In this document: positions 10,246 to 20,956 of the stretch, piece by piece
How positions within the stretch are numbered: position 1 is the stretch's first letter
How the letters are laid out: each line of letters starts with the position of its first letter
DNA from: Asaia bogorensis NBRC 16594
GTDB lineage: Bacteria; Pseudomonadota; Alphaproteobacteria; Acetobacterales; Acetobacteraceae
DNA length: 64,000 nt
Direction: 5' to 3'
Assembly: GCF_001547995.1 (NCBI RefSeq)
Contig: NZ_AP014690.1
Span: forward strand, 2,415,001-2,479,000
The notes under the pieces: generated by a model
Seen by the model: only the letters and a program-made list of their open reading frames with translations
What the model was told of the DNA's origin: nothing
The model's database searches: none
Translations under genes and position numbers: made by a program

Positions 10246-12078
10246 TCAGGCGTTGTGGTTACGCGCCGGAGCCACGAGCTCCTTGGCGATCGTCTGAAGG
10301 ATCAGGCAGCAGGAGGTTGCACCGGCATCGAGCACGCCACGTGAACGCTCGCCCAGTCGGCTGGCGCGGCCGATACGGGCCACCAGATCGATTGTGGAGT
10401 CACGACCACGTTCTGCCGCTTCCGACATCGTAATCAGGGCCTGCTCGAACGACTTTCCATCATCCAGTGCCTTGTGGAAGGCTTCAACCGAAGGTTGCAG
10501 CGTATCGACAAGGGTCTTGTCACCTACGCGGGCATTGCCAAGGCTGTTGATGCCGGCCAGCGCCCCATCGAGCATCTGGGCGAAGAGCTTGCCATCAAGG
10601 AATTCGACATTGCGCAGCGGGATCGCCATGCCTTCGAAGAAACGGCCATAAAGCGGGCCCATCGAGCCGCCGATACCGGCCATCAGCGAGTCTGACAGGG
10701 CATCGAGGCCCTTTTCCATGACCGGCGGGTTGGCACCCAGCGCATCACCGCAGCGGGCAAAGCCCTTGGCCATGTTGATGCCGTGATCGCCATCGCCAAT
10801 CTTGCCGTCGATCTCGCTCAGCCAGTCACGTGCCTTGACGATGGCATCGACCAGGGCCGGGATGACCTTCGTGGTTTCGGCAACGGGAATACCGCTCTTG
10901 GGCACGTATTTCTCGCCCGTCGCGGTCTTGACCAGCGCTTCGACCGGGTCGGCCTTGGCCGTAGGCGCTTCAGCAGCCTGAACCTGTGCCGCACCAGCGC
11001 CGACGCGCACCAGACCGATGGATTCGGCGGGAGCAGCCATCAGGCGATCCAGCTCTTCATCGGTCTTCATGATCGTCAGGGTGGCGCCCTTCATCTCGAG
11101 CGAGGTGAAGAGATTGCCAACGAAGCGATGCGCCACCTCAATGCCCTTCTCCTTCAGGAGATCGGCAACATCAGCGTAAAGCACATAGAGTTCGATGATC
11201 GGGGTGGCACCCAGACCCGAGAGCAGCACCGTCACGCGGTCGCCTTTGGTGAAGGGCAGGTCGGGCAGGATGTGCTCAAGCATCAGCTTGGCGATATCGC
11301 GCGAGCGGCCGAGCTCCTGAACCGACACGCCGGGCTCGCCATGATGGCCGATACCGACTTCCATGGTGCCGAGTTCGATCGAGAAATTCGGATGACCGTT
11401 GGCAACGATGGTGCAGGGCGTGAGGCCGACACCGATGGAGCGGGTATTGGCAATGGCCTTGCGGGCAACGGCAATCACCTCATCCAGCGAGCCGCCTTCT
11501 TCAGCGCGCGCACCGGCGGCTTTCCACATCAGGATTTCGCCAGCAACACCGCGGCGGCGCTCGGCTTCACTTGCCGGAGCCGAAGCAACGTCGTCGGTGG
11601 CGACCACGGTCTCGACCTTGATGCCAGCCTGCTGCGCATCACGCGCCGCCATGCGGACATTCATCGTATCACCCGCGTAGTTGCCAAACAGGCAGGCTAC
11701 GCCAGCGCCCATATCGGCTTCCTTCATGGCGTCGAGGAAGCTCACAGCCGTCGGAGAAGAGAAGATCTCACCAATGGCAACCGAGTCCAGAAGGCCCGTA
11801 CCGACATAGCCAAGGAACGCCGGCTCATGGCCCGAACCGCCACCCGTGATCACGCCGACCTTGCGACGGCCCGTGGTCTTGGCGCGCTTGACGACACGCG
11901 GATTGGCCGTTTCTACAATGATGTCGGGATGAGCAAGGAGTGCGCCGCGCACGCCGTCTTCGACCACGCCATCGGGGTCGTTGAAGATGCGGTCCAGCTT
12001 GGGCCGTGCTGCGGGAGACTGGGACGAAGCGCCATCGCCATGGCCGGTATGCGCTGCGTGAACGATTGAATGAACCAT
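10246..12078 (-). CDS. DhaK-DhaL fusion kinase (dihydroxyacetone/erythrulose kinase type)
   Basis: ATP-dependent kinase for small ketoses. The N-terminal DhaK domain has GGGSGHEP (about residues 79-86) and GIGHHGEPG, whose His forms the covalent hemiaminal with the carbonyl. An Ala-Pro linker near residue 370 leads to a C-terminal DhaL domain with KIGDGDHGIN (ATP/Mg site, about 425) and LGARVGDKT-like SLGNARVGDKTLVDTL. About 610 residues is normal for the fused ATP type, so no PTS partner is needed. The start is unsettled between ATG 12078 and ATG 12090; neither has a strong ribosome site. It is the first gene of a two-gene unit with the polyol dehydrogenase, which argues for erythrulose as the in vivo substrate. 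An inverted repeat at 12150-12182 probably controls it. Confidence 0.85.
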   Translation of the reverse strand: MVHSIVHAAHTGHGDGASSQSPAARPKLDRIFNDPDGVVEDGVRGALLAHPDIIVETANPRVVKRAKTTGRRKVGVITGGGSGHEPAFLGYVGTGLLDSVAIGEIFSSPTAVSFLDAMKEADMGAGVACLFGNYAGDTMNVRMAARDAQQAGIKVETVVATDDVASAPASEAERRRGVAGEILMWKAAGARAEEGGSLDEVIAVARKAIANTRSIGVGLTPCTIVANGHPNFSIELGTMEVGIGHHGEPGVSVQELGRSRDIAKLMLEHILPDLPFTKGDRVTVLLSGLGATPIIELYVLYADVADLLKEKGIEVAHRFVGNLFTSLEMKGATLTIMKTDEELDRLMAAPAESIGLVRVGAGAAQVQAAEAPTAKADPVEALVKTATGEKYVPKSGIPVAETTKVIPALVDAIVKARDWLSEIDGKIGDGDHGINMAKGFARCGDALGANPPVMEKGLDALSDSLMAGIGGSMGPLYGRFFEGMAIPLRNVEFLDGKLFAQMLDGALAGINSLGNARVGDKTLVDTLQPSVEAFHKALDDGKSFEQALITMSEAAERGRDSTIDLVARIGRASRLGERSRGVLDAGATSCCLILQTIAKELVAPARNHNA

Positions 12079-12628
12079 AATGGGCCCCATACTGTGTGCC
12101 GGGAAAACACCCTAAGTGCCCAAGAACCATAACCGTAACAGCGGTTGTGAACGAAATCACACTAACGAGAGTGATATTCGTTACCTATTATGTGGGACCA
12201 GAACGATCCTGATTACTGTTTTTGCATGTGAACTACGGCACTTTGTTATAATTATGTATATTTGTCAATATGTTGTCCACTACAGGGCCTTTGGATCGCC
12301 TGCTGCGAGCACCCGGCATTCATCTGATCAAACTGAACAAATGTGATATTTCGTGTCACTTACGGACCATTCGGCCTGCCTGCGCCATGGTTTGAAAGAC
12401 TCTGTCCGTTCTTTTTCACATGATCAGCGACTATTGGCCTGTTTTTAAGTGCCCAAGGCCATACGGCGACCATGCGTGTATCGGCAGCATGATCATCAAT
12501 GGCGATCAAGTTCCGGTGTGACACTGCATTTGGGGTATCGGTTATTGTAAAACACTCCGATCCTCCTTAAAAGTCACCGGAGCCACACCCAAAATAATAA
12601 TACCTCAAAGAGGCCTTGGCACCGAACG
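12079..12628. other. 550-nt divergent intergenic region between the kinase and NRPS genes
   Basis: AT-rich compared with its surroundings, with no credible gene. It holds the inverted repeat 12150-12182, a smaller repeat AACCG/CGGTT (12131-12146), a -10-like TATAAT at 12247-12252 (plus strand, with TTGCAT 19 nt before), and a 6-bp hairpin (12435-12440 with 12456-12461). If the NRPS promoter is near 12250, its leader would be about 370 nt. Confidence 0.55.
12150..12182. promoter_or_regulatory. Long imperfect inverted repeat, probable operator of the polyol kinase/dehydrogenase unit
   Basis: AACGAAATCACACT (12150-12163) is the near-complement of AGAGTGATATTCGTT (12168-12182), separated by AACG, with one bulge and one mismatch. 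It lies about 70 nt upstream of the kinase start, where a repressor or activator dimer would bind. No regulator gene is adjacent. Confidence 0.5.
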
Positions 12629-15600
12629 ATGCTGCACGAAAACCGCGTTGCGACGCTGCCATTGACCACTGCACAACGTGGGTTGTGGATGACGCAATTT
12701 CTCGCCCCTTCAGGATCGAGCCTGAATATTGCGGAAGCGATCCATCTTCGCGGAGCACTCCGCACAGATCTCTTCATCGAGGCACTCACCTGCGTACAGG
12801 CCGAGGCCGAGACGCTCAGGACCGCCATCGTCAAAAAACCAGAGGGTCCGGTTTACACGATCCGCCCACCAGGATCCGTCACCTGTCCTGTCATCGCGTT
12901 CCACGACATGCCCGATCCGGAACAGTCCGCCCGTGACTGGATGCTTGAACGCCTGCGTGCACCGTTGGATCTCGAACATGATCCGTTGTGGCAAAACGCC
13001 TTACTGCAGCTCAGCGACACGTATCATATCTGGTTTCACTGCTGTCATCATGCCGTGCTGGACGGATTTGCAGGCGGGATGGTGGCAGCGCGTGTCGCGG
13101 CCCACTACAGCGCGCGATATGACGGGATATCCCCCCCGGAGGCCGCCTTCCTCCCACTCTCGACCCTGCATGAGCAGGAACAGGCCTACCGGCAGTCGCC
13201 TTGCTTCGAAAAGGACAAGGCCTACTGGAGCGAAGCGCTTTCAGAAGCACCCGAGCCGGTTTCGTTGTCGCTGCGCCCCCAACGTGCCCCCAGCGGCGAG
13301 GCTGGCGGCGCGATAACCCGCGCAGTTTTCATGTCGGATGAGCGCGCCGAGAGTCTGACCCGGATCGGCCGTGCGCTGGAGGCGACCCTCCCCCAGACAC
13401 TGACAGCCCTTCTCGTGGCCTATCTCTATCGCGTTACCGGACAATCCGACCTTGTCGTGGGCATGCCCGTCAGTGCACGCGCCAATCGTCAGCTCAGACA
13501 CACGCCCGGCATGGTCGCCAATGCTGTGGCGCTGCGTTTCAGGATCGCACCCAAAACCAGTTTTGCCGACCTCGTCGGCATGGCACGTCGGGCCATGCGT
13601 AATGCATTACGCCACCAGCAATATCGCTACGAGGATATGCGGCGTGATCTCGGGATGTTCAGCAATACTACCCAGATCAGCCGTATCGGCATCAATATCG
13701 AGCCTTTCGACTATAATCTCTCCTTCGGTCCCATCACCGCGCGCAACGAAAATCTGAGCAATGGCGCGATGGAGGATCTGACCATCTTCGTCTTCGACCG
13801 CAAGGACGGTGCTGGCCTGTGTTTTCAATGCGATGCCAACCCAGCGCTTTACGCGGCCCATGAGCTGGATGCGCATCTGACCCGAATCCTGCGTCTGGCT
13901 GAACAGATCGCCAACGTACCCGATACCACGCTCGATCATCTGTCCCTGCTCACGCCAGAGGAACGCGATGCGCAGGAAGCCAGAAACCGGACAACCCGCC
14001 GCGACTGGCCCACCACGCCCCTGACAAAGCTTATCGACCATGGGGTCAGTCGCGGCTCCGGCCCCCTCGTCAGCGATGCCTATGGCGTGATGACGCGTGA
14101 GGTATTTCTTCGACAGAGCGGCGCTTTGGCCGAACAGCTTCGGGCAGAAGGCATGGGGCCGGGCAAGCTGGTCGCTCTGGCCCTGCCACGCGACAGACGC
14201 ATGATCCTTGCTGTTGCCGCTGTCCTGCAGGCAGGCGCCGCATGGTTGCCCCTCGATATCGCCTCGCCCCAGGCACGGGCAAAGTTGATCCTCGAAGATG
14301 CTGAACCCAGTGCCGTCATTGTGCCGGACGCTGCCCATCTCGACTGGGCGGCAGAATACACCGCATGGGCTCTTGCGAGCGACGCGTCCACACTGCAGCG
14401 ACTTTCGCGAGGGAAGATAGCCTCGTCCTCGCCCGTCCCGGATGACACGGCCTATGTCACCTATACCTCAGGTACGACCGGGCGACCCAAGGGGGTGGTT
14501 ATTCCCCGCAAGGCCCTGACAAACTTCCTGCATGCCATCACGGAAAGACTGGCCTATGGCGCGCAGGAAACACTTCTGGCCGTCACGGCCTGGACATTTG
14601 ATATTGCCGTGCTCGAAATGCTCCTGCCGCTCACATCCGGCGGGGCCTGTGTCATTGCCAGCCGCGAGGATATCCTGGAACCAGGCCGTCTGGCAGCCCT
14701 TGTTCGGGAACATGGCATCACAGCCATGCAAGCGACCCCGACGCTGTGGCAGACCCTGCTCGGCACAGCCGAGAGCAGCGCCCTGCAGGGTATAATGCTC
14801 ATGAGCGGCGGCGAGGCGATGCCAGCCCATATGGCGCGCCAGATGCTGCATCTCGGCCGGGCGGTGCATAATCTGTATGGCCCCACGGAAACCACGATCT
14901 GGTCTACGACGCATCATCTCGACCCTCAGGAAACCGATACGCCGGCCGCTGGGCATGCTCTGGCCAATACACAGCTTTACATCATCGGGCCCGATCAAAC
15001 CCCGCTGCCAGATGGCGTTGTCGGCGAATTGCTGATTGCGGGTGATGGCGTTGCCTCGGGCTATCTCAATCAGCCGGAACTCACGGCAAGCCGCTTCATC
15101 CCCGACCCTCTTGGGGTACCTGGACACAAGGCCTATCGCACAGGCGATCGGGCGGCAATTGGACATGACGGGACGTTGACCGTCTTTGGGCGCGGCGACC
15201 AGCAGATCAAGATACGCGGGATGCGTATCGAACCCAGTGAGATCGAGAGTACGTTGCTTAGCCTGCCAGAAATCCTGCAGGCCGCCGTGATGATCGAGAA
15301 AGACCCTGCACGCGGCACGTCTCTCCTCGCCGCCTATCTCGTACCCGCAACCCATGGCGCAAAGCTCGACCCTTCACAGATCAGACGCACCCTTCTTGGC
15401 CTGCTTCCCCCCCAGATGATCCCGGTGCGTATCGTCTGCGTCGAGACACTGCCGCGCATGACAAGCGGCAAGCTTGACCGGGCGGCGCTGGCCTCCCTGC
15501 GTGAAGAGACGGAGACGACAACCTTCACCGAAGCCCGCACCCCGGCGGAACGCAGGCTGAGCGCATTATGGGGCGAACTGCTCGATCTCGAACGCGTCGA

Positions 15601-16624
15601 CATCCATACCAGCTTCTTCGAACTCGGCGGCGACAGCCTCATGGTCGTACAGATGATCGCCTGCCTCTCACGCGAGGGTTACGCGCTTCCTGTCGGGCAG
15701 GTTTTTGCCGCTCCTACAATTGCCCTTCTGGCTCCCCTGCTCGAAGGGGGCTCGGTCACCTGCGACCCGCTTGCGCCATGCCTTGCCATACGGGAACAGG
15801 GACACAACGCGCCGGTCTTCTGTTTTCATCCCGTGATCGGCATGAGCTGGAACTTCAACACGCTGGCCCCACTCCTTTCTGAGTCCCATCCGGTCTATGG
15901 CCTGCAGGATGCCGGGCTCCTGCTGAAGAACGATGCGCCCGCCACGCTCGCGGCCCTGGCGGCCTTCTATGTTGCCGAATTGCGGCGTTTGCAGCCGCAC
16001 GGCCCCTATCATCTGGTCGGGTGGTCCATGGGTGGCGTTGTTGCCCATGAAATTGCGTCTCTCCTAAGACAGGAGGGGGAGGAGATAGCCCTGTTGGCCA
16101 TGCTGGATTCTTATCCCTGCCTGCTCCAGGATCAGAGCCTTGCGCCGGATAGCCCCCAGGCCATACGCGCTGCCCTGCAATTCCTGCAGATCGCTCCGGT
16201 CGAGGATGCAGCCTTGCCCGATACGCTCGATGGCCTGGCCGATCTGTTTCTGGAAACACTGGACACAACGGTGCTTCCGGATCTGCCTGAAATCGACCTC
16301 AATGCCCTGACCAGCCTTGCCGAGAAGCTGCGCCTGATCACCAGACGCAATATCGAGATGCTGCTCGCCCATGTTCCGACGCCCAATGATGCCGATATCC
16401 TGTTCCTCAGGGCTGCGGACAAGGGAAGCCAGAACGAGGTGACGATCATCTCGGACGACCCGTATGCCTGGAGGGCGTACAGCTCTGGCCATATCACGGC
16501 CCATGACCTTGACTGCCGTCATGGCGATATGCTGCTGCCCGGCCATGTCGAGACCGTTGCGCGTTGGATCAATATCGGCCTCGCGCAGGACCGCACGCCC
16601 GCATCCTGCCTCTCTGCCGCCTGA
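12629..16624 (+). CDS. Single-module nonribosomal peptide synthetase, C-A-T-TE, A domain predicted for glycine
   Basis: 1331 residues with EntF-like architecture. Condensation domain, about 8-440: active-site HHAVLDG at 140-146. Adenylation, about 475-960: YVTYTSGTTGRPKG near 609-622, AWTFDIAVLE, NLYGPTETTIW, YRTGDRA and the catalytic Lys in SGKLDR. Thiolation, about 970-1040: FFELGGDSL with phosphopantetheine Ser1003. Thioesterase, about 1075-1325: GWSMGG with nucleophile Ser1133 and a late His in CRHGDML. Specificity positions read by eye are D-I-L-Q-M-G-L-I-W plus K, one change from the glycine code as I recall it (DILQLGLIWK). A C domain before the only A domain implies an acyl or aryl donor in trans. 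No EntB/EntE-like genes are visible. AGAGG sits 15 nt before the ATG, rather far. GT1 and ABC genes follow. Product unknown; glycine is a prediction. Confidence 0.93.
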   Translation: MLHENRVATLPLTTAQRGLWMTQFLAPSGSSLNIAEAIHLRGALRTDLFIEALTCVQAEAETLRTAIVKKPEGPVYTIRPPGSVTCPVIAFHDMPDPEQSARDWMLERLRAPLDLEHDPLWQNALLQLSDTYHIWFHCCHHAVLDGFAGGMVAARVAAHYSARYDGISPPEAAFLPLSTLHEQEQAYRQSPCFEKDKAYWSEALSEAPEPVSLSLRPQRAPSGEAGGAITRAVFMSDERAESLTRIGRALEATLPQTLTALLVAYLYRVTGQSDLVVGMPVSARANRQLRHTPGMVANAVALRFRIAPKTSFADLVGMARRAMRNALRHQQYRYEDMRRDLGMFSNTTQISRIGINIEPFDYNLSFGPITARNENLSNGAMEDLTIFVFDRKDGAGLCFQCDANPALYAAHELDAHLTRILRLAEQIANVPDTTLDHLSLLTPEERDAQEARNRTTRRDWPTTPLTKLIDHGVSRGSGPLVSDAYGVMTREVFLRQSGALAEQLRAEGMGPGKLVALALPRDRRMILAVAAVLQAGAAWLPLDIASPQARAKLILEDAEPSAVIVPDAAHLDWAAEYTAWALASDASTLQRLSRGKIASSSPVPDDTAYVTYTSGTTGRPKGVVIPRKALTNFLHAITERLAYGAQETLLAVTAWTFDIAVLEMLLPLTSGGACVIASREDILEPGRLAALVREHGITAMQATPTLWQTLLGTAESSALQGIMLMSGGEAMPAHMARQMLHLGRAVHNLYGPTETTIWSTTHHLDPQETDTPAAGHALANTQLYIIGPDQTPLPDGVVGELLIAGDGVASGYLNQPELTASRFIPDPLGVPGHKAYRTGDRAAIGHDGTLTVFGRGDQQIKIRGMRIEPSEIESTLLSLPEILQAAVMIEKDPARGTSLLAAYLVPATHGAKLDPSQIRRTLLGLLPPQMIPVRIVCVETLPRMTSGKLDRAALASLREETETTTFTEARTPAERRLSALWGELLDLERVDIHTSFFELGGDSLMVVQMIACLSREGYALPVGQVFAAPTIALLAPLLEGGSVTCDPLAPCLAIREQGHNAPVFCFHPVIGMSWNFNTLAPLLSESHPVYGLQDAGLLLKNDAPATLAALAAFYVAELRRLQPHGPYHLVGWSMGGVVAHEIASLLRQEGEEIALLAMLDSYPCLLQDQSLAPDSPQAIRAALQFLQIAPVEDAALPDTLDGLADLFLETLDTTVLPDLPEIDLNALTSLAEKLRLITRRNIEMLLAHVPTPNDADILFLRAADKGSQNEVTIISDDPYAWRAYSSGHITAHDLDCRHGDMLLPGHVETVARWINIGLAQDRTPASCLSAA

Positions 16625-16636
16625 CCGGATGCCGCC

Positions 16637-17950
16637 ATGAAAATCGTGATCTTCACCATCGGCACGCAGGGCGATGCGCGTCCGTTCGTCGCCCTTGGGC
16701 AGGGCCTCGCCAGACGGGGTCACGACGTCTGCATTGCCACATCAGCGCGCCACGAAGCCCTCATAAGGGGCGGTGGTCTCAGGTTTGCGCCCATCGAGTC
16801 CGATTTCGCCGACCTGATGACACAGGAACATGCTGTGCTGGAAAAGGGAAACCAGTTGCGCATGGGATGGCAGGTCGCTCGTGCCCTGTGTCGGTGGATG
16901 CCTCTCTGGGTCAGGCAGGCGATGGAAGCCACGAAAAGAGCAGAACTCGTCATCGGATCGGGCTCCGGCACGATACTCGGAGCCTCGATTGCCCAGAAGC
17001 GGGGCATAGCGTTCGTTCAGGCGCAATTCATGCCCATGACCCCGTCGAAATGGGTGCCTCCCCTGTGGCCGAACCCGGCCCTGCGCTTGCCCGGTATCCT
17101 GCATAAGGCGCTGACCCATGTGGCACGATTCCTGATCTGGCGTTTCATGTCGTTTCCGGTGGCGATCATGCGTCGCGAGCTGTCCCTGCCTCCCATTGGC
17201 TGGAAGGGACCGTGGTCCGAAACGGACAGCGCGGGTAACAGGCGCTATCTGCTTTATGCCTTCAGCCGGCACATCCAGCCCCAACCCGCTGACTGGTCGC
17301 GTGACCGCATTGCCGTAACCGGGAGCTGGTTCTACGACCAGAAAACAAGCTGGCGCCCCTCACCGGAGCTGGAAGCATTTCTCGCCGCCGGTCCTGCCCC
17401 GGTCTATGTCGGGTTTGGCAGCATGATGACCGGCAACCCGGAGAAATTTACCGCGCTCATTCTCAGGGCCCTGCGCCTGACCGGGCGACGCGCGATCGTC
17501 GCGACAGGCTGGGGAGCGCTCAAAAACCTCAAGCCCGACCAGGAGGGGGATATCTTTTTCATCGACAACGCCCCCCATGACTGGCTTTTTCCCCGCGTAT
17601 CCCTTGCGGTTCATCACGGGGGCGCTGGAACGGTGGCGGCTGCCACGCGCGCCGGCCTGCCTCAGGTGATCATACCGTTTCTGGCTGACCAGTTTTTCTG
17701 GAGCTGGCGCCTGAAGGTTATCGGTATCAGCCCGATGCGCCTGTCGCGCAGGACACTCACCGCCGAAAGGCTGGCCGAGGCCATCGGGCGCGCAACAACA
17801 CGCGCTCCGCGCGACAAGGCCGCCTCATTGCGTCCACTGATCGAAGCAGAGCAGGGTGTCGAGAGCGCCATCGACATACTTGAGGGCTGGGGCCTGTTGA
17901 GGCAGGAAACCCGGAGTGCCACCCTGACCACAGGGATATTACCGCGTTGA
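16637..17950 (+). CDS. GT1-family glycosyltransferase (UGT/GtfB-like)
   Basis: 437 residues with the GT-B fold of natural-product and lipid glycosyltransferases. The N terminus has GTQGDARPFVALGQGLARRGH, where Asp13 occupies the place of the catalytic base in GtfB/UGT51-type enzymes. The donor domain has FVGFGSM-like VGFGSMMTGNP and VHHGGAGTVAAATRAGLPQVIIPFLADQFFW, the nucleotide-sugar signature with the ring-contacting DQ. No signal or membrane helix is apparent. It starts 12 nt after the NRPS stop and is followed at once by the ABC genes, so it probably glycosylates the NRPS product before export. MGT-type macrolide-glycosylating relatives and sterol or rhamnolipid glycosyltransferases are similar; sugar and acceptor are unknown. 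Confidence 0.88.
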   Translation: MKIVIFTIGTQGDARPFVALGQGLARRGHDVCIATSARHEALIRGGGLRFAPIESDFADLMTQEHAVLEKGNQLRMGWQVARALCRWMPLWVRQAMEATKRAELVIGSGSGTILGASIAQKRGIAFVQAQFMPMTPSKWVPPLWPNPALRLPGILHKALTHVARFLIWRFMSFPVAIMRRELSLPPIGWKGPWSETDSAGNRRYLLYAFSRHIQPQPADWSRDRIAVTGSWFYDQKTSWRPSPELEAFLAAGPAPVYVGFGSMMTGNPEKFTALILRALRLTGRRAIVATGWGALKNLKPDQEGDIFFIDNAPHDWLFPRVSLAVHHGGAGTVAAATRAGLPQVIIPFLADQFFWSWRLKVIGISPMRLSRRTLTAERLAEAIGRATTRAPRDKAASLRPLIEAEQGVESAIDILEGWGLLRQETRSATLTTGILPR

Positions 17951-18009
17951 CGCCAGCCAAGCCCTCTACCGAGCAAGCTCATGATCGCTCATGCAGACCG
18001 GAGCATGCC

Positions 18010-18783
18010 GTGCCCTCAGCGCCTTCGGGCATGGCAGGCGCGCCACAGGCTGTGATCAGGGTGGAGAAGCTGGTCAAATCCTACGGGGATCGGCAGGTTG
18101 TCTCGGGTCTGGATTTCACGGTCGCTCGCGGTGAGATTTTCGCCTTTCTGGGGCCCAACGGCGCAGGCAAGACCACCACGATCAAGATGCTGACCACCCT
18201 GCTTCCCCCTGATAGCGGACGCATCCTGTTGAATGGCATCGATCTGGCCAATGACCCGATGGAAGCCAGGCGTCATTTCGGCGTGGTCTTCCAGGAATGT
18301 ACCCTGGACCCTGCCATGACCGTGCAGGAGAATCTCTGGATCCATTGCGCTTTCTACCGCATCCCGCGTGCCGAGAGAGCGTCACGTATTGCAGACGCGC
18401 TAACCCTGTTCGATATGACGGACCACGCGCGGCAGATGGTCAGGACCCTGAGTGGCGGTCTCAAGCGGCGGGTCGAGATCGCCAGATCCCTGCTGCACCG
18501 CCCAGCCCTGATTTTTCTGGATGAGCCGACTCTCGGGCTCGACCCGCAATCACGGCGTGTGCTGTGGGATCATCTACAGGCGTTGCAGGCCCATCAGGGT
18601 ACGACCATTTTCCTGACGAGCCATTATCTCGATGAGGTCGAACGCGTTGCACAGAGCGTCGCTGTGATCAAACAAGGACGCATCCTGACCCAAGGCGCGG
18701 TCAGCGCTGTGATGGATCATGCCCAGCAAGGTTCGCTGGAAGACAGCTTCCTCTCTCTGACCGCCGGGGAAGAGCCGCGTTGA
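18010..18783 (+). CDS. ABC exporter ATP-binding subunit, DrrA-like
   Basis: Cytoplasmic ATPase of a two-part exporter. Walker A is GPNGAGKTT, the Q-loop lies in VVFQECTLD, the signature is LSGGLKRRVEIARSL, Walker B is LIFLDEPTLGLD and the switch His is in TSHYLDE. After the core comes a short C-terminal tail ending in SLEDSFLSL, as in DrrA/CcmA-type antibiotic and polysaccharide exporters. I chose GTG 18010 because GGAG lies 6 nt upstream. A TTG at 17947 overlapping the glycosyltransferase stop would add a 21-residue Pro-rich tail, and ATG 18031 is also possible. It overlaps the permease start. Exporting the NRPS/GT product is the inference from context. Confidence 0.88.
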   Translation: MPSAPSGMAGAPQAVIRVEKLVKSYGDRQVVSGLDFTVARGEIFAFLGPNGAGKTTTIKMLTTLLPPDSGRILLNGIDLANDPMEARRHFGVVFQECTLDPAMTVQENLWIHCAFYRIPRAERASRIADALTLFDMTDHARQMVRTLSGGLKRRVEIARSLLHRPALIFLDEPTLGLDPQSRRVLWDHLQALQAHQGTTIFLTSHYLDEVERVAQSVAVIKQGRILTQGAVSAVMDHAQQGSLEDSFLSLTAGEEPR

Positions 18784-19532
18784 TGATCGATGTCATCTAT
18801 AATTTATGGCTCAGGCAAATCAGGAGCTTCTTGCGTGCGCGAGGCCGGCTGATTTCGGCGCTGGCACAGCCTTTCCTGTTTCTCGTTGCCCTCGGTCTGG
18901 GCTTTGCGCCAGTTTTTCGCAAGGCGGGCGAAGGGGATTATTTCACGTTCCTCGCACCGGGTGTGGTGGGCGCAGGTATCCTGTTCAACACGGTCTATTC
19001 AGGTGCGGATTTGCTGTGGGACAGGCAGTTCGGGTTCATCAAGGAGACACTGGTCTCGCCGGTTTCCCGACACTGGATCCTGCTCGGGCGTGCGCTGGGT
19101 GTGGCAAGTGTCGCGTTGATCCAGGCTATCATCGTGAGTGTGATATGCCTGACACTGGCAGGTGTTCTCCCTTCACCCGCCCATCTGGCGCTCGCCTTAG
19201 CCTTTGCCCTGCTTCTGGCTTTGCTCTTTGCCTTTTTCGGCTCGGTGCTGGGCTCCGTCATGAGCGATGCCCAAAGCTTTTCACAAACCGTCAATTTTAT
19301 CCTGACGCCGCTTTTCTATCTTTCCGGCGCTGTCTTCCCCCTTGAAGGGCAGAGCCGCCTTATCAGGGGACTCGCCTTCAGCAACCCGCTGACCTACGGC
19401 ATTGACGGCATGAGAGGCGCCCTGACCGGCCACGCTATGCTGGACCCACTTTTGTCCCTGTCGGTGCTCGGCGTCACAACCCTTCTTATGGCTCTTGCCG
19501 CCCAGATAGCGTTCTCCCGCATTCGGCCCTGA
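18783..19532 (+). CDS. ABC-2 type permease, DrrB-like
   Basis: 249 residues with six predicted membrane segments. The first follows RLISALAQPFLFLVALGLGFAP; later ones include VASVALIQAIIVSVICLTLAGVL, LALAFALLLALLFAFFGSVLG and a hydrophobic C-terminal end. The block FSQTVNFILTPLFYLSGAVFPL is the ABC-2/DrrB signature. Translation is coupled: the ATPase stop and this ATG share bases (TGATG at 18781-18785). Together with the ATPase it forms a complete exporter. The gene ends 11 nt from the convergent symporter gene and closes the four-gene cluster that starts with the NRPS. Confidence 0.88.
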   Translation: MIDVIYNLWLRQIRSFLRARGRLISALAQPFLFLVALGLGFAPVFRKAGEGDYFTFLAPGVVGAGILFNTVYSGADLLWDRQFGFIKETLVSPVSRHWILLGRALGVASVALIQAIIVSVICLTLAGVLPSPAHLALALAFALLLALLFAFFGSVLGSVMSDAQSFSQTVNFILTPLFYLSGAVFPLEGQSRLIRGLAFSNPLTYGIDGMRGALTGHAMLDPLLSLSVLGVTTLLMALAAQIAFSRIRP

Positions 19533-19543
19533 CCCTTCAGAGA

Positions 19544-20956
19544 TCAGGCGCCTTTGGCCTTCCTCCCCATTTCGCCGTGGCAGACAGAATCCCTGCGCGG
19601 CAGTCCGGCCTGAAACAGTATCGCACCATTGACCAGCAAACCCGGAAGAGCCGGACTCAGACCAAAGGGGCCCCAGTCCAAGGCGAAAACCACGCCACCC
19701 GATACAAGCCCGAGGAACAGGGCAGCAAGCAGCCGTCCAGGGGAAACGCGATATCCCGTCACGCAAAGCAGCACGGCGGGTAGGAGCTGCACCAGCCCTA
19801 CATAGAACAGCCGGTTGAGTGTCACGATCAGCGCGGTATGCAGGGCAGCTGTCAGCACGGAAAGGCCAAGATAGAGCGCAATGATGGCCAGACCCGTACG
19901 CTTTTGCGCAGGGGCAGAAAGATGCGGCGTGAAACTGCCGGTGACGATCGCCGCAAGGCTGAGGCACACCGCCCCGAGCCAGACGAGCGCGGTCAGGGCC
20001 ACTGCGCCTGAGACGATCCCGACACCCCACCCCGGCAGAAGATGCGACGCTACCGAGAGAAAGACTGAGTCGGGCCGTCCCATAATGACGGGATGGGTCA
20101 GGCCGAAACACGCAATGACGACCAGCAGCGGAAACAGCACCATATAGAGCGGCATCCAGATCTGGGCCCGTCTGATGGTTTGCGGATCGCGGGCCGAGAA
20201 GACAGCGGCAGCGGTTTGTGGCGCAATGCAAAAGCCGAAAGCCTGCGTCACGATCGTGCTCATGATCATCACACAGGTCGAAAAAGGATGTGGACTGGCA
20301 CCACGCAGCGCCACGTTGAGAGGGCGCGTCGCCTGATGGGGCCAGGCCAAGAGGGCTGCAAACGCCACGCAGACGATGGAGAGCAGGATCAGGCCATCCT
20401 TCAATGCCGCACTCAGCGCCGCACCACGCAATCCGGCACCCGCCACAAAAAGGAACGCCAGCAATGCTGCGAACGCACTGAGCATGATAGGGGAAACCGG
20501 TAGGGCAAGGGTCGAGAATACCGCATCCAGGCCTATGAACTGCATGGTCCCCAGCGGGAGCATCAGAATAACGAGCACAAGGCCCGTCACACGCCCGACA
20601 AGCGTACTCCGGAAATACCCCCCCAGCATGTCTGGCAGGGTTATGGCGCCCAGGCGGTTTCCCACCCGCCATAACCGGGGATACAGCACCATCCCGACCG
20701 GGAAGGCGAGCAGGATATACCCGACAAACCACAATGCCACGTCGATGGAACCGCTCGCGGCGATACCTCCGGGAAAGCCCAAAACCGAACCGATCGAATA
20801 GGTCTCGCCCACTGAAAGCAGAAAGAAGAGCGCAACGCCGAACTGCCCTCGTGCGGCAAAAAAGGCGCGAGGGTCACGGGTGACGCCGCTTCTGAGCGGC
20901 GCGCAGGCCAAACCCAGGGCGAGCAGGAGGACGAGAACGAAACCCGCCACTCTCAA
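19544..20956 (-). CDS. Sodium:solute symporter family transporter
   Basis: 470 residues and about 12-13 membrane helices. SSS features are the N-terminal GQFGVALFFLLSVGETYSIGSVLGFPGG, a periplasm-exposed loop, and LPDMLGGYFRS after helix 2-3, which matches the symporter family. Transport is presumably driven by Na+ or H+. The substrate cannot be read; relatives carry carboxylates, amino acids or sugars. The start is a TTG (20956) with a strong GGAGGGG upstream, overlapping the stop of the DUF3311 gene; a GTG two codons later is the alternative. The pairing with a DUF3311 protein is typical of this subgroup, where both form one transporter unit. It is convergent with the ABC exporter genes and not obviously part of that cluster. 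Confidence 0.88.
   Translation of the reverse strand: MRVAGFVLVLLLALGLACAPLRSGVTRDPRAFFAARGQFGVALFFLLSVGETYSIGSVLGFPGGIAASGSIDVALWFVGYILLAFPVGMVLYPRLWRVGNRLGAITLPDMLGGYFRSTLVGRVTGLVLVILMLPLGTMQFIGLDAVFSTLALPVSPIMLSAFAALLAFLFVAGAGLRGAALSAALKDGLILLSIVCVAFAALLAWPHQATRPLNVALRGASPHPFSTCVMIMSTIVTQAFGFCIAPQTAAAVFSARDPQTIRRAQIWMPLYMVLFPLLVVIACFGLTHPVIMGRPDSVFLSVASHLLPGWGVGIVSGAVALTALVWLGAVCLSLAAIVTGSFTPHLSAPAQKRTGLAIIALYLGLSVLTAALHTALIVTLNRLFYVGLVQLLPAVLLCVTGYRVSPGRLLAALFLGLVSGGVVFALDWGPFGLSPALPGLLVNGAILFQAGLPRRDSVCHGEMGRKAKGA

Follow-up and report, generated by a model that had tools for sequence, protein, structure and literature searches.

A single-module nonribosomal peptide synthetase paired with a GT1 glycosyltransferase in Asaia bogorensis, a candidate pathway to glycosylated N-acylglycines

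We analysed a stretch of 64,000 nucleotides from Asaia bogorensis NBRC 16594 (contig NZ_AP014690.1, positions 2,415,001 to 2,479,000; hereafter the window), which carries a compact four-gene cassette encoding a single-module nonribosomal peptide synthetase (NRPS), a glycosyltransferase (GT) and a two-gene ABC exporter. The host genome is a single contig of 3,198,265 bases. Coordinates below are window positions unless a locus label (L) is given; G labels denote genomes. The genes and domains of the cassette, with the basis of each call, are as follows.

12629..16624, plus strand: NRPS, one C-A-T-TE module, 1331 aa (open reading frame (ORF) and Pfam domains)
12653..13969, plus strand: starter-like condensation (C) domain with HHAVLDG; the gate position (RzmA R148) is Gly (PDB ranking, tree and motif reading)
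14081..15493, plus strand: adenylation (A) domain with the glycine-type code DILQMGLIWK (Pfam and alignment)
15554..15733, plus strand: thiolation (T, carrier) domain with LGGDS (Pfam and motif)
15812..16570, plus strand: type I thioesterase (TE) domain with GWSMGG and the conserved His (Pfam and motif)
16637..17950, plus strand: GT1/GT28-like glycosyltransferase, 437 aa, with Asp13 and HHGGAGT motifs (closest solved structure a sterol 3-beta-glucosyltransferase)
17947..18783, plus strand: DrrA-like ABC transporter ATPase, 278 aa, below the curated DrrA cut-off (Pfam and NCBIfam)
18780..19532, plus strand: DrrB-like ABC-2 type permease, 250 aa, below the curated DrrB cut-off (Pfam and NCBIfam)

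The original prediction of four tightly packed genes was confirmed, as the ORFs and the Pfam matches agree. The NRPS gene is separated from the GT gene by 12 nt, the GT ORF runs 4 nt into that of the ATPase, and the ATPase stop shares the string TGATG with an ATG of the permease. Orthologous blocks in other species indicate that this arrangement is more than chance. On the NRPS, Pfam placed the Condensation domain at residues 9-447, AMP-binding at 485-813 with its C-terminal part at 871-948, PP-binding at 976-1035 and Thioesterase at 1062-1314. The catalytic motifs are intact, namely HHAVLDG, the A10 Lys, LGGDS, GWSMGG and the TE His. For the exporter, the predicted ABC ATPase and ABC-2 permease were both found, but the assignment to DrrA and DrrB reached only 269.7 of 312.45 and 164.8 of 223.05 bits. 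A scan for regulatory signals gave 2 promoter-like sites against 2.5 expected and 7 terminator-like sites against 5.3 expected.

The C domain of the NRPS is the sole Condensation match in the 3.2-Mb genome by a genome-wide profile search; therefore no upstream amino-acyl donor is apparent, and an origin in a longer assembly line is disfavoured. Its best matches among solved structures were the starter domains of RzmA (225 bits) and CDA (194), followed by EntF (136), ObiF1 (128), VibH (106) and elongation domains (about 91 or less), with the RzmA starter closer than EntF by 90 bits. In a tree of 92 C domains, 28 elongation-type domains, mostly from multi-module proteins, split from the 64 others with support of 100/100. 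Among these 64, a clade of 21 members (100/95) takes in the Asaia domain and lies apart from the EntF group of 35 (97/94), while the remaining 43 make up a weak group (87/88) holding the EntF group and both starter references, RzmA and CDA. The tree program issued a long-branch warning, which included CDA. An elongation type is thus excluded by the tree, but because the starter references share a sister branch with the EntF group, the tree cannot alone separate acyl from aryl starters. A starter-type C domain had been named in advance as a finding that would support the first reading, and both the 100/100 split and the nearest solved relatives agree with it.

The residue at the acyl gate bears on the type of donor. 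According to the excerpted text of PMC7804268, starter C domains of the RzmA and CDA type use acyl-CoA or acyl-ACP to acylate the first amino acid, and an Arg to Gly exchange at RzmA residue 148 lengthens the acyl chain, C2 giving way to C8 or C10. We identified Gly at the equivalent position in 20 of the 21 clade members and Ala in the remaining one. Where the motif could be read outside the clade, Gly occurred in none of 25 EntF-type domains, which carry Thr, Phe or Met, and in none of 31 others; 13 of the 92 domains lacked a readable motif and were left out of the count. With so small a residue at the gate, the donor predicted for the clade is a fatty acyl group of medium or long chain. Two points disfavour an aryl donor: the position of the C domain outside the EntF group, and its small gate residue, of a kind linked to longer acyl chains. 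The first reading of the locus had named an N-acyl or an N-aryl glycine derivative as the product, and it is the acyl half of this proposal that gains from these results, at the expense of the aryl half.

We then read the specificity code of the A domain at NRPS positions 658, 659, 662, 701, 725, 727, 749, 757, 758 and 948. The residues are D-I-L-Q-M-G-L-I-W-K, while the control in the same alignment, E. coli EntF, gave DVWHFSLVDK. The glycine-type code that had been proposed for this domain was thereby confirmed, and the serine code was rejected. A code of the form DILQ[LM]G[LVFM][IV]WK was found in 15 members of the 21-member clade, which are the window NRPS, A. bogorensis GD-01, A. siamensis, Dyella, a Pseudosulfitobacter plasmid, G087, G038, G348, G275, G045, G201, G159, G393, G255 and G428. 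A sixteenth, from A. prunellae, is interrupted over three frames, and its readable segments agree with the code. The other five read DIIQLCLIFK (a metagenome-assembled genome (MAG) of Cellvibrionaceae) or DVWHFSLVDK (four Inquilinus-type proteins). The EntF group of the tree reads DVWHFSLVDK in 34 of its 35 rows, the exception being L009, a multi-module protein of Asaia G004 with the code DTWDQGLVDK. Outside the clade, one further NRPS with the glycine code (L081, from G308) has no GT match nearby. The excerpt of a signature-sequence paper (PMC12283262) assigns DILQLGMIWK, the code of clade member G255, to glycine, and the exact string DILQLGLIWK gave no match in a literature search. From the code we infer that the A domain probably activates glycine.

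To place the NRPS and GT in other genomes, we compared their loci. A GT1 gene adjoins the NRPS in 14 of the 21 clade loci, which are 14 of the 16 with the glycine code. The two genes occur in three layouts: NRPS followed by GT in tandem (four Asaia genomes, G087, G201, G159, G393 and Dyella), GT followed by NRPS (G255), and convergent (G038, G348, G275 and G045). At 24 NRPS loci outside the clade, a search for the GT (E 1e-5) gave no match at any, in stretches of 5-26 kb, some of them bounded by contig ends. Among 397 Acetobacteraceae genomes, which we took to be the same set in both searches, NRPS matches were found in 43 (E 1e-140); 13 of these hold a clade protein (at least 39% identity), and the other 30 stand at 31-38% identity, 19 being typed by code and 11 untyped. 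GT matches were found in 23 of the 397 genomes (E 1e-40), including all 13 with a clade NRPS. The 12 best GT matches of the 397 genomes (at least 292 bits) belong to 12 of these 13, and the GT of the thirteenth is cut by a contig end. The five cassette-free Asaia genomes gave no GT match at the same threshold. The pair is common to Alphaproteobacteria and Gammaproteobacteria and would be old enough for its genes to have been rearranged in three ways, while in Asaia it forms part of a four-gene cassette that is either present or absent.

The exporter follows a different pattern. It shares one operon with the NRPS and GT only in Asaia and in one other genus (G087), and on this ground we rejected it as a core member. 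Other transport genes lie near the pair elsewhere: L072 has another ABC pair some 2.6 kb away from its GT, and L069 a gene of the major facilitator superfamily beside its GT. Conservation beyond this strain, which had been named as a test for the whole four-gene block, was found, but the widely kept unit is the NRPS with its GT.

Based on the above results, we propose that the cassette makes an N-fatty-acyl-glycine that is released, glycosylated and exported, a reading to which we give a probability of roughly 0.57. The A domain would activate glycine and load it onto the carrier domain, and the starter-like C domain would transfer a fatty acyl group of medium or long chain from acyl-CoA or acyl-ACP to the amine of glycine. 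The thioesterase would then free the N-acylglycine, most likely by hydrolysis. GT1 would add a sugar to the hydroxyl of the acyl chain if the chain is 3-hydroxylated, and otherwise to the carboxylate, and the DrrAB-like pair would export the glycolipid. What we observed are the genes and domains, the intact motifs, the conserved code, the kinship of the C domain, its gate residue and the linkage of NRPS and GT. The glycine step and the acyl type of the donor rest on sequence rules, and the identity of the substrates, the acyl length, the site and kind of sugar, the order of steps and the export are our inferences. We further suggest, at slightly less than even odds, that an undescribed glycolipid class, glycosylated N-(3-hydroxy)acyl-glycines, is built around the NRPS-GT1 pair, and that one NRPS module would serve as a lipid-glycine ligase.

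Several observations weigh against this proposal. Seven of the 21 clade loci have no GT match, namely G428, the Pseudosulfitobacter plasmid, the Cellvibrionaceae MAG and the four Inquilinus-type loci; G428 does hold a 42% identical GT copy, unlinked, on another contig. Ten Acetobacteraceae genomes carry weaker GT homologues (185-251 bits) and no clade NRPS. The RzmA and CDA starter references are not inside the Asaia clade but join the EntF group in its weakly supported sister branch (fork 87/88). A single match to a phosphopantetheinyl transferase was found in the genome, in an open frame of 165 aa (match at G000:C1:2096710-2097096). The NRPS must therefore depend on that enzyme for its activation, and the enzyme may serve all carriers, of polyketide synthase (PKS) and NRPS alike. 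In addition, the A. prunellae NRPS (L014 10001-14000) is the one broken in three frames; the same assembly also splits the flanking permease gene, which makes assembly error and gene decay indistinguishable.

The alternative that holds up best, though we consider it unlikely, is that the thioesterase dimerises or cyclises the acyl-glycine as in SwrW, with the GT using a leftover hydroxyl or another acceptor. The product of SwrW is serine-based, and we know of no GT1 paired with this enzyme. SwrW, the serrawettin W1/serratamolide synthetase of Serratia, makes a small aminolipid surfactant with one C-A-T-TE module, as described in excerpts of PMC7767323 and PMC3353980, and we liken the two by description only. 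The first reading set the module beside EntF alone and so passed over single-module aminolipid synthetases of this sort. The Asaia protein shares the domain order given for SwrW in PMC7767323 and has an intact TE active site; a single polypeptide carries its complete module, and the genome gave no second C domain. Full cyclisation would consume the very hydroxyl and carboxylate that the GT needs, and a GT is present in all 13 clade-NRPS genomes of Acetobacteraceae, which favours a released and glycosylated N-acylglycine.

It is less probable again that NRPS and GT have separate targets, with the GT glycosylating a sterol-like or hopanoid lipid or inactivating an antibiotic and its link to the NRPS having another cause. 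The nearest relatives of the GT lend this some weight. The best solved match is a sterol 3-beta-glucosyltransferase at 193 bits, so that GtfB (109 bits) was rejected as the closest solved GT, and the best NCBIfam match is the rifamycin-inactivating Rgt at 117 of 800 bits, far below the cut-off. The first description of the enzyme as GtfB/UGT-type is accordingly kept as to the GT1 type and changed as to the nearest solved match. Adjacency through three layouts, co-occurrence in 13 of 13 genomes and the lack of a GT match in the five cassette-free Asaia genomes argue against separate targets.

An enterobactin-type module, which would condense an aryl acid from a separate aryl carrier into an aryl-glycine or siderophore-like product, is marginally more doubtful still. 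EntF is also a C-A-T-TE protein, with about 32% identity to the Asaia NRPS, but it has the serine code and a C domain of another group, and it works with EntB and EntE. In favour of this type are the similar architecture, matches of the EntF and MxcG models to the NRPS (far below their cut-offs, at 588 of 2400 and 645 of 2300 bits), TonB/ExbB genes nearby, and a tree that puts the C domain no nearer to the acyl-starter references than to the EntF group. Against these stand the glycine code, the closer match to the RzmA starter, and a gate residue unlike that of any readable EntF-type domain; moreover, ExbB/TonB genes are also present in cassette-free Asaia. A genome-wide search returned four PP-binding matches. 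One is the cassette T domain, another lies in a PKS, and the remaining two are short carriers, 79 and 84 aa long, which by eye resemble acyl carriers. No EntB-like aryl carrier was seen among these four, in line with the original prediction that this partner is absent, although the EntB and EntE families were not searched for directly.

We also considered the PKS upstream of the cassette. It is a type I enzyme of 2114 aa encoded on the minus strand about 22 kb upstream of the NRPS (L062 4024-10368, about 10-16 kb before the start of the window), and by eye its domains are ketosynthase, acyltransferase, dehydratase, enoylreductase, ketoreductase and acyl carrier protein, with no TE. In the excerpted text of PMC8776678, A. 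bogorensis NBRC 16594 and A. astilbis are reported to carry PKS and NRPS genes in opposing directions with similarity to VbsS; the cluster is called a PKS/NRPS hybrid, and VbsS-like trimerisation is suggested. The locus of that survey is probably the cassette locus, because the genome has a single C domain match and, at the distance just given, a PKS on the opposite strand to the NRPS. The same excerpt limits C-A-PCP-TE in one monomodular NRPS, among acetous species, to two Acetobacter, which does not fit the complete module of Asaia. That the nearby PKS supplies the acyl chain is the least probable of the alternatives, since the PKS was matched in nine of nine Asaia genomes against four of nine for the clade NRPS, and no match to it was found in 11 stretches (6.5-24 kb) around clade NRPSs of other genera, so that the two do not form a unit. 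The earlier remark that no described cluster of exactly this composition was known needs amending, as the locus probably figures in PMC8776678 with another reading. Our literature search, judged by titles, found no described NRPS-GT1 pair of this kind and no known product.

The starter C domains of RzmA and CDA, the closest solved C domains, begin multi-module peptides, whereas the first module of the Asaia NRPS is also the last. In rhamnolipid synthesis (RhlA, RhlB and RhlC), a lipid acid is made and then glycosylated by a GT1; the likeness, by description, lies in the lipid acid and the GT1, while the Asaia lipid part would come from an NRPS and should contain glycine. AB3403 of Acinetobacter (4zxh/4zxi), for which a glycine-bound structure exists, has the same C-A-T-TE order and matches the Asaia NRPS over residues 12-1312, and it was not among the solved matches of the C domain (E 1e-20). 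An excerpt of PMC6668435 calls AB3403 uncharacterised.

In Dyella marensis the pair belongs to a larger operon (L024 7253-17623) of NRPS, GT1, a condensation/PapA-like acyltransferase and a rhamnosyltransferase-like GT2, in which every junction is an ATGA overlap. The GT2 matched the rhamnosyltransferase model at 157 bits (cut-off 200.55), and ORFs resembling a response regulator and a histidine kinase were seen by eye 5' of the operon. These four genes appear to be a glycolipid gene set, with the rhamnosyltransferase-like GT2 adding to the likeness with the rhamnolipid pathway.

If the proposal is correct, the pair would be a two-gene glycolipid pathway that is easily tested and easily moved to a laboratory host, and a surface-active lipid would be predicted from acetic acid bacteria. 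Because one module does both the first and the last step, it would also be a minimal system for studying the choice of acyl chain by a starter C domain. The aglycone that we predict is similar to commendamide, a bacterial N-acylglycine with receptor activity, so a glycosylated form could matter for host interaction. Asaia is known as an insect symbiont. That the pair is kept in several bacterial genera may point to an uncharacterised kind of small bacterial glycolipid.

Within Asaia, the cassette lies between two flanking genes.

10246..12090, minus strand: dihydroxyacetone kinase, flank outside the cassette, matched in nine of nine Asaia genomes
19544..20956, minus strand: MctP-like permease (far below the curated cut-off), flank outside the cassette, adjoining the kinase in the five cassette-free Asaia

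The cassette is absent in five of nine Asaia genomes, and there the flanking kinase and permease genes are direct neighbours; in two of these drafts (G001 and G005, 88% and 85% complete) one flanking gene is split over frames. In Asaia G004 and G008 there are NRPS matches of another, unlike kind. Among named relatives, A. bogorensis GD-01 comes closest at this locus, with 93% NRPS identity. Kinase identity is 87-100% across Asaia, compared with 67% for the A. siamensis NRPS. In G087, which belongs to a different genus, the same four genes occur in another context, and an ORF of transposase-type helix-turn-helix domains adjoins the exporter. The G+C content is 58-63% in the cassette genes and 62% in the flanks, and it is 46.5% in the 538-bp gap 5' of the NRPS. 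A comparison of the cassette edges showed that, towards the kinase, about 157 bp of the flank are conserved. The gap also contains a short stretch at 12329-12360 with the near-palindrome GTGATATTTCGTGTCAC. In A. siamensis, and likewise in cassette-free Asaia G005, this stretch is kept at about 91-97% identity, so it may belong to the control region of the kinase.

Separately, we observed serine-code members of the C clade in Inquilinus limosus (L019) and at the kin loci L013, L015 and L016. The C-A-T NRPS of L019 (7204-11541) ends in a reductase domain, and a rhamnosyltransferase (216 bits, cut-off 200.55) is encoded about 6 kb away at L019 17623-18576, so this locus may make an acylated serinol or serinal glycolipid. 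The L016 record is named Mycobacterium sp. KBS0706, a name that may be wrong, because its NRPS groups tightly with that of Inquilinus limosus.

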